DNA of 40,307 nucleotides. Source: Chloroflexota bacterium. GTDB taxonomy: Bacteria > Chloroflexota > Dehalococcoidia > Lucifugimonadales > UBA3495. Position 1 is the stretch's first letter. Each line of letters opens with the position of its first letter. The notes under the pieces were generated by a model. That model saw only the letters and a program-made list of their open reading frames with translations, had not been told where the DNA came from and made no database searches. The stretch spans positions 1 to 40,307 of the forward strand of contig VXOH01000009.1 of the NCBI GenBank assembly GCA_009840135.1. Direction: 5' to 3'. A program made the translations under genes and the position numbers. Below are positions 11,244 to 11,663 of this stretch, in pieces.

Positions 11244-11272
11244 TTGACAAGCAATATTCAATATGCTAACAA
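11244..11272 (+). promoter_or_regulatory. Promoter of the structured RNA
   Basis: A perfect TTGACA (11244-11249) is followed after 17 bases by TAACAA (11267-11272), preceded by TGC (extended -10). Transcription would begin around 11279. The region is AT-rich compared with its surroundings. Confidence 0.55.
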
Positions 11273-11278
11273 TAATGC

Positions 11279-11513
11279 AACCGCTTGGCGGGAATCTGAA
11301 AAAAGGAGGTGATATGGCATGGAACATAGTTTAGTTTGCGGGGGCGATGGTAGGCATCAGTCTGGACACGACGGGGTGAGCCTGACCTAAAGGTCTCTAT
11401 AAACTCTGACCCGTCAGTCGGGCCCAGGCCAATGTCTACCATCGCCCCCGAGATTCTGATTATCTTAGGGCGGTGCCTAATCCAGATTGGCTGGGCCCGA
11501 ACCCTTTTTACCA
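11279..11513 (+). ncRNA. Candidate structured leader or regulatory RNA
   Basis: From the proposed start near 11279, the transcript carries a near-perfect ribosome binding site (AAGGAGGTGAT, 11303-11313) and then a long rod-like hairpin at 11339-11450. The base helix has 19 pairs (11339-11357 with 11432-11450): 18 Watson-Crick and one G-U. Above it lie TCTGG/CCAGG (361-365 with 424-428, adding 11000), GACGGG/CCCGTC (370-375 with 410-415), GAG/CTC and GACC-TAAA-GGTC at the tip. A small hairpin TTAGG/CCTAA (11465-11480) and GGG-CCCGAA-CCC-TTTTT (11493-11509) follow; the last is a weak terminator. tmRNA, SRP RNA, RNase P RNA and T-box signatures are absent. It lies about 200 bases before rpsP. 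The class is unknown to me. Confidence 0.45.
11319..11390 (+). CDS. Possible 23-residue leader peptide inside the structured RNA
   Basis: ATG at 11319 lies 9 bases after GGAGG in an almost ideal ribosome binding site. The frame encodes 23 residues rich in Gly and His (GGDGRHQSGHDG in the middle) and stops at TAA in the tetraloop of the apical GACC/GGTC stem. Translation would unwind the 5' arm of the large hairpin, as expected for an attenuator or a translation sensor. The alternative ATG at 11314 is too close to the binding site and meets a stop after six codons. The strength of the binding site is the main evidence. Confidence 0.35.
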   Translation: MEHSLVCGGDGRHQSGHDGVSLT

Positions 11514-11634: not shown

Positions 11635-11663
11635 TTGACAATTGGATACCCTGCTCTTAGAAT
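11635..11663 (+). promoter_or_regulatory. Promoter of the rpsP-khpA-rimM operon
   Basis: A perfect TTGACA (11635-11640), a 17-base spacer and TAGAAT (11658-11663). Transcription would start near 11670, giving a 45-base leader that contains the hairpin at 11681-11699. Confidence 0.85.

Follow-up and report, generated by a model that had tools for sequence, protein, structure and literature searches.

What kind of RNA is encoded upstream of the rpsP-khpA-rimM genes of a Dehalococcoidia genome, and does it serve those genes or stand alone? The window considered here is a whole contig stretch of 40,307 nucleotides from a Chloroflexota bacterium (VXOH01000009.1). The original prediction, made from the letters of this DNA, described a promoter-driven hairpin RNA carrying a short open reading frame (ORF), and proposed either that translation of the ORF would open the hairpin, as in an attenuator or ribosome sensor, or that the RNA belongs to a new class.

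Anatomy of the rod RNA

The gene, promoter included, occupies approximately positions 11244-11509 of the window (Table 1), and the span originally delimited (11279-11513) matches the body of the transcript. Direct reading of the sequence bears out the TTGACA-N17 promoter, the Shine-Dalgarno (SD) sequence, the 23-codon ORF, and the 19-pair base helix with one G-U pair, and the stop codon of the ORF does lie in the apical tetraloop. The promoter spacer is 17 nt when counted to TAACAA; the scanner reports 18 nt to AACAAT. Two elements go beyond the earlier description, namely a short hairpin at the expected transcript start (P0) and a 3' tail complementary to the 3' arm of the rod. Both strands of P0 are altered in the homologues L122 (CCGAC..GTCGG) and L027 (GCCTC..GAGGC), as judged by eye. 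The SD core (GGAGGTGA) is almost unchanging among homologues; the standard 16S rRNA 3' end had no match in the draft assembly of the window genome. Additionally, a second ATG upstream (ATGGCATGG...) opens a 6-codon ORF (MAWNIV, then a stop; 11314-11334) that overlaps the main ORF in another frame and that is present in the window and in close relatives.

Table 1. Features of the rod RNA gene and its immediate context, in window coordinates.
Feature	Position	Strand	Remarks
Sigma-70-type promoter	11244..11273	+	TTGACA 11244-11249; TAACAAT 11267-11273
P0, short hairpin CCGC-TTG-GCGG	11281..11291	+	Expected transcript start; from alignment
Shine-Dalgarno sequence AAGGAGGTGAT	11303..11313	+	Direct reading
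ORF MEHSLVCGGDGRHQSGHDGVSLT, 23 codons	11319..11390	+	ATG 11319; stop TAA 11388-11390 in apical tetraloop
AGT-TTA, codons 4 and 5	11328..11333	+	TTTA kept across the order, L029 excepted
P1 (rod base helix), 5' strand, C + GGGGGCGATGGTAGGCAT	11339..11357	+	Pairs with 11432-11450
P2 (rod upper helix), 5' strand GTCTGGACACGAC	11360..11372	+	
Apical mini-hairpin GACC-TAAA-GGTC	11384..11395	+	Contains the stop codon (UAAA loop of GACC-UAAA-GGUC)
P2, 3' strand GTCGGGCCCAGGC	11417..11429	+	Second partner: 3' tail
P1, 3' strand, ATGTCTACCATCGCCCCC + G	11432..11450	+	Pairs with 11339-11357
3' tail ATTGGCTGGGCCCGA	11486..11500	+	Complementary to 11418-11433; alternative helix, pseudoknot if P1 persists
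T tract	11505..11509	+	Probable transcript end (inferred); classical terminator instead in other clades
Separate promoter of rpsP, TTGACA-N17-TAGAAT	11635..11663	+	Context, outside the rod RNA

Distribution and genomic context

The rod RNA occurs once in the window genome. A covariance model recovered it in 45 of the 49 genomes of the window's family (BLAST against relatives detected it in almost every member) and in a further 7 genomes belonging to families f4, f10, and f15 of the same order, such that the hairpin is conserved among relatives. Named records that carry it are SAR202 and other Dehalococcoidia metagenome-assembled genomes (MAGs), and this form is referred to below as SAR202-type. 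The genomes compared are mostly metagenome assemblies, and covariance-model matches L131 (phylum) and L116 and L117 (class) were left out as members. Among the 49 genomes of the family, G002, G212, G214, and G219 yielded no match; in the case of G212, which is 91% complete, this may be a true absence. L082, from another phylum, lacks the element. In L029 (with L078; a small-genome relative), the rod and tail are reduced, the TTA codon is absent, and the ORF is shortened to 10 codons, which gives the impression of an element in decay.

In the window's family, the RNA is almost always located between the divergent genes fmt and rpsP, and its neighbors in f4, f10, and f15 differ from these. A promoter-like TTGACA site precedes 46 of 48 homologues, including those in unrelated gene contexts. 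The separate promoter of rpsP, correctly noted in the original prediction, is kept in 38 of the 42 loci where rpsP was examinable; at L011, L029, and L083 the gap before rpsP is short and a separate rpsP promoter was not found there. Moreover, members in f4, f10, f15, f121, and f136 lie away from rpsP and mostly face convergent genes. The promoter of the RNA itself, the retained rpsP promoter, and the differing neighbors together indicate that the rod RNA is a stand-alone gene and not an rpsP leader.

Conservation of the hairpin and of the ORF

The RNA strand of the window folds at -98.6 kcal/mol (z -4.3), and none of 200 dinucleotide shuffles folded as low. In an alignment of 20 sequences spanning four families, 94.2% of rod pair cells are standard pairs; shuffling of the 3' letters lowers this figure to 92.5%, and sliding the strands against each other lowers it to about 40% or below. 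Most of this signal is conservation, because many rod pairs never vary; 14 cells are changed on both sides, a number reached in none of 500 shuffles (pair statistics here and below count sequences, not evolutionary events). In some f15 homologues, P2 forms 13 unbroken pairs with the 3' arm. Conservation within the family and compensatory changes thus confirm the hairpin as a structure beyond chance.

The ORF is constrained in an unusual manner. In the window's family, it comprises exactly 23 codons and stops at position +46 of the rod in all homologues examined bar L029; the codons preceding the stop vary, TAA and TAG interchange, and TGA is absent. The base of the rod is one nucleotide shorter in f15, which shifts the frame; the resulting peptides, of 19-20 residues, are unrelated, and their ORFs also end in the apical loop. 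The ORF of L027 has 20 codons. In f10 and L029, the third frame is used and the stop follows after 10-11 codons, within the base helix. The SD, the AUG, and the codon-5 TTA are kept throughout the order, with TTA missing solely in L029. Hence, start, SD, and stop position are conserved although peptide and frame differ between families, all three frames being represented. An open frame by itself would be weak evidence, because the sequence of the 5' arm leaves two of the three frames open; a stronger case for the ORF comes from the constant stop position and from the f121 data described below. These patterns indicate that selection acts on being translated and not on the peptide.

The identity of the stop codon is also biased. 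A total of 32 ORFs in the SAR202-type order end in TAG, 16 in TAA, and none in TGA. When f121 is included (TAA 61, TAG 8, TGA 1), TGA accounts for 1 of 118 stops, as compared to 30-35% in neighboring genes, and this near absence points to release factor 1 as the factor that would act at the tip. The conserved TTTA was also considered as a frameshift site and rejected: no canonical slippery heptamer is present and, as inferred from the sequences, frameshifted products are unconserved.

A competing helix in the SAR202-type RNA

The upper part of the rod's 3' arm (TCGGGCCCAGGCC) has a second partner in the 3' tail (GGCYGGGCCCGA). In the window, this tail helix is calculated at -31.7 kcal/mol versus -20.4 kcal/mol for the duplex of the same strand with the 5' arm, and the tail duplex is the stronger of the two in every homologue examined. 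Seven cells of the tail helix are changed on both sides, a number reached in 1 of 500 shuffles, and these rest on few evolutionary events. They include co-changes in f15 (C-G to U-A and A-U to G-C), and in f10 the helix is lengthened by GGUUGG/CCAACC. L027 has no clear tail and the tail pairing of L122 is weak. The tail is not merely a terminator, since it persists where a classical terminator follows. In one clade (L036, L042, L045, and L073), the sequence GCCCGGC occurs just 3' of the tail, approximately 60-110 nt past the rod, and can pair with the GCCGGGC of the tail, with a classical terminator thereafter; this would constitute a third competing helix in that clade.

For the free RNA, nested folding predicts the rod in all 47 SAR202-type sequences; covering the ORF over its full length makes the tail helix supplant the rod in 46 of 47. 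If one ribosome alone occupies the stop codon, the rod is predicted to keep its base in 45 of 47, in a calculation that cannot represent pseudoknots. The proposal that translation would open the hairpin is supported, in that the ORF is conserved and spans the 5' arm, its stop is at the tip, and the layout recurs across the phylum. One terminating ribosome is predicted to leave the rod base in place, and a switch would therefore need several ribosomes, kinetics, or a pseudoknot.

As a separate observation, made by eye, the 3' base strand of the window rod (ATCGCCCC, 11441-11448) is pairable with the SD (11305-11313, GG-A-GGUGAU) across one bulge, because the 5' strand of the rod (GGGGCGAT) resembles the SD. 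An SD-hiding state formed by ATCGCCCC is thus possible in SAR202-type RNA.

An independent family and recurrence across the phylum

Family f121 provides an independent case. Its version of the RNA was found in 131 of 150 genomes, including 82 of the 88 that are near-complete, and in 23 of 26 genera, with downstream neighboring genes that are mostly convergent. Alignment of the sequences leaves no doubt about the AUG site. The distance from the AUG to the conserved core takes the values 28, 31, 34, 37, and 46, and every one of the 70 fetched loci keeps the same frame, a count that is preselected in that an ORF open past the core was required; once the length of the tip is counted, a total of 11 length classes can be distinguished. 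The base helix is fully paired in 68 of 70 sequences and shows both-side changes at five of its ten pairs, with the caveat that its 3' strand was placed by best complementarity, which favors pairing.

In f121 the competing helix takes another form. A segment of the ORF (GGCATCCCTCCTC) is complementary to the ORF's own SD region over 13 positions, at a mean of -23.6 kcal/mol, and in two sequences GATG/CATC is swapped for GTTG/CAAC in this pairing. This suggests a state in which the SD is hidden and which would compete with the rod, although the pairing is less well backed than the base helix. Of the two predicted switches, the tail switch is put forward for SAR202-type RNA and the SD switch for f121. 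A near-invariant GCCATCC is also found approximately 10 nt before the SD of f121 (L150-L219) and is a near copy of GGCATCC, the SD-pairing segment of the ORF.

Further afield, weak covariance-model matches in the distant family f136 show the same layout. A search of 350 genomes with a motif covering the SD, the start, and codon 4 gave 14 matches, of which 12 loci, the window counted, have the layout; the other two (L139 and L140) are ordinary coding sequence and were rejected. The motif selects for the SD and early codons, and not for the rod, the tip stop, or the terminator. A strong SD, an ORF of 14-23 codons along the 5' arm, a stop at the tip, and a terminator recur in f73, f121, f136, f137, and f147. 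The rod encloses the stop in 10 of the 11 loci outside of the window, and in f136 the stop falls exactly in the tetraloop; L145 lacks a tip stop, and the fold of L143 is no better than that of shuffles (z -0.5). Rod sequences are mostly unrelated between families, and common descent of the element across the phylum appears likely. At L143 (positions 1434-1530; family f73, of the window's class) the RNA is divergent from rpsB-tsf and lies just before a birA-like gene, and so again adjoins ribosomal genes.

Comparison with known RNAs

Searches against Rfam 15 at the gathering cut-off gave zero matches for the window and for eight loci sharing the anatomy. Relaxing the threshold to E 10 for the window region gave only chance matches to microRNA and lncRNA models, among them the animal microRNA mir-337 on the minus strand (11335-11463; 31.7 bits, E 7e-5, gathering score 80), which is a chance effect of a long hairpin. 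Identity with tmRNA or SRP RNA, for which the original prediction had found no signature, was rejected, as the genome encodes these elsewhere (G000:C2:10472-10824 and G000:C101:7935-8034, respectively). A literature search gave no description of such an RNA, although subscription journals were mostly outside its reach and a prior description is therefore possible.

The closest parallel in layout is the leader of a trp-type attenuator, with which the rod RNA shares an ORF on strand 1 of a hairpin, a stop near the loop, a strand 2 with an alternative partner, and a terminator. It differs from such leaders in that its peptides have no repeated codons for a sensed amino acid, its rod is far longer, the tail helix is kept even with a separate terminator behind it, and a co-directional operon is mostly absent. 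An identity as a trp-type attenuator of rpsP was rejected, as rpsP has a promoter of its own in 38 of 42 loci and most loci in other families have no co-directional downstream gene. In ermC-type translational attenuators, the position of a ribosome on the leader ORF picks between competing helices; the rod RNA differs in having no downstream gene whose SD is freed, the hidden SD of f121 being that of the ORF itself. Type I toxin mRNAs such as hok are metastable and combine a short ORF with an alternative fold that hides the SD, whereas rod RNA peptides are short, polar-looking, and not conserved between families. Like 6S RNA (RF00013), the rod RNA is a long, rod-like, and stand-alone RNA, but it has no match to that family, lacks a large central bubble, and carries an SD and an ORF; no 6S RNA was found at the Rfam cut-off in 20 relatives, which leaves a 6S-like role conceivable, if improbable. 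The rod RNA further resembles peTrpL/rnTrpL of Sinorhizobium, a free leader RNA with a leader peptide acting in trans (PMC7298713), in being a short, terminated transcript with a tiny ORF that could act alone, and differs in not deriving from a biosynthetic operon and in having a peptide that is unconserved between families. Dual-function small RNAs, such as SR1 (PMC8501984) and VcdRP (PMC8672173), are also stand-alone RNAs with a short ORF, and their peptides have functions of their own. In the rod RNA, the conserved promoter and ORF are compatible with a stand-alone translated transcript, but no peptide is conserved: families within a single order have different frames and peptides, while the ORF and the rod persist.

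For each known kind of RNA open to testing, the rod RNA was found to lack at least one defining feature, which indicates that it is new in kind. The suggestion of a new RNA class has gained in strength, given the conserved ORF, a layout that recurs across the phylum, and the lack of Rfam matches. Two outcomes that would have refuted the original prediction, a hairpin neither conserved nor covarying among relatives and a match to an Rfam family, did not occur. Should the RNA turn out to operate in trans by the logic of a classical attenuator, it would be less new in kind.

Proposed mechanism and alternatives

The gene, its promoter, the conserved ORF, the rod, and the competing helices are shown by evidence that is comparative throughout. 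We propose, with a probability of roughly 0.55, that they represent a free-standing, translated, two-state RNA of an undescribed phylum-wide class, the fold of which would be set by translation of its ORF. In this class, a promoter and a strong SD would be followed by an ORF of 10-23 codons along the 5' arm of the rod, usually a stop at the tip, the 3' arm, and a terminator. An RNA that is not translated would stay in the rod. In SAR202-type RNA, ribosomes on the ORF would remove the 5' arm and leave the 3' arm free for the tail; in f121, the ORF strand would alternate between the 3' arm (rod formed, SD free) and its own SD (SD hidden). The fold could then report on initiation and termination at the ORF, both their occurrence and their rate, so that being translated would matter and not the peptide. 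That the folds interconvert with translation, that this is their function, and that the output is in trans is inferred; the absence of a gene in cis is the reason for assuming action in trans, which may proceed through the stability of the RNA, a strand that becomes exposed, or the engagement of ribosomes. A more specific version is put forward tentatively and at somewhat below even odds: that these are phylum-wide autonomous sensor RNAs in which translation of a hairpin arm, up to a tip stop that release factor 1 can read, determines the fold and reports initiation or termination capacity to the rest of the cell independently of the peptide.

Several other explanations merit consideration. 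The locus could be a small-protein gene in which the peptide of 10-23 residues is the product and the rod and SD pairing only tune its expression. Consistent with this, the ORF is clearly held in frame, f121 peptides have SAVASLL in common, and most peptides begin with M[DEKN]xS; such a gene is nevertheless unlikely, given that the frame relative to the rod varies within one order to yield unrelated peptides, that conserved residues fall where the RNA is base-paired, that codon 5 across the order is invariably TTA and not just any leucine codon (L029 excepted), and that the ORFs of f10 and L029 end after 10-11 codons. Next in plausibility, and also improbable, is a ribosome decoy or trap, in which an optimal SD and a roadblock 22 nt after the AUG would hold initiating or early elongating ribosomes, refolding being incidental. 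The nearly perfect SD, the nearly constant spacing from AUG to rod in the order, and the very stable base helix would fit such a device, which leaves the tip stop, the avoidance of TGA, and the conserved competing helices unexplained. Less plausible again is a trans-acting, base-pairing small RNA in which the ORF controls only stability: its most conserved stretches are sequestered in the rod, even though the RNA is stand-alone, short, and terminated and its invariant 3' arm could serve as an exposed seed.

Control of the rpsP-khpA-rimM operon in cis is very improbable. The RNA is nearly always upstream of rpsP in the window's family, its anatomy is trp-like, and the three loci with short gaps and no separate rpsP promoter found would permit it; set against this are the promoter that rpsP has of its own in most loci, the placement of the RNA away from rpsP in five other families, and the ordinary terminator that follows the RNA in several clades, and the reading of the locus as a plain attenuator of rpsP is accordingly not upheld. 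Least probable of all is a divergent housekeeping RNA (6S, SRP RNA, or tmRNA) with a coincidental ORF. The lack of 6S matches among relatives makes a 6S substitute conceivable, whereas the conserved SD and ORF, the tmRNA and SRP RNA encoded elsewhere, and the lack of a meaningful Rfam match even at E 10 speak against it.

Implications

Of the readings considered, a free-standing RNA with a fold set by translation is the one favored here. The RNA is conserved and usually single-copy, being present in 82 of 88 near-complete f121 genomes and in most genomes of a distant family, and it appears to separate translation from its product, in that the peptide drifts whereas start, stop, and passage through the hairpin are retained. 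If the proposed mechanism is true, it would constitute a gene-independent sensor of translation in marine bacteria that are abundant and largely uncultured (SAR202).
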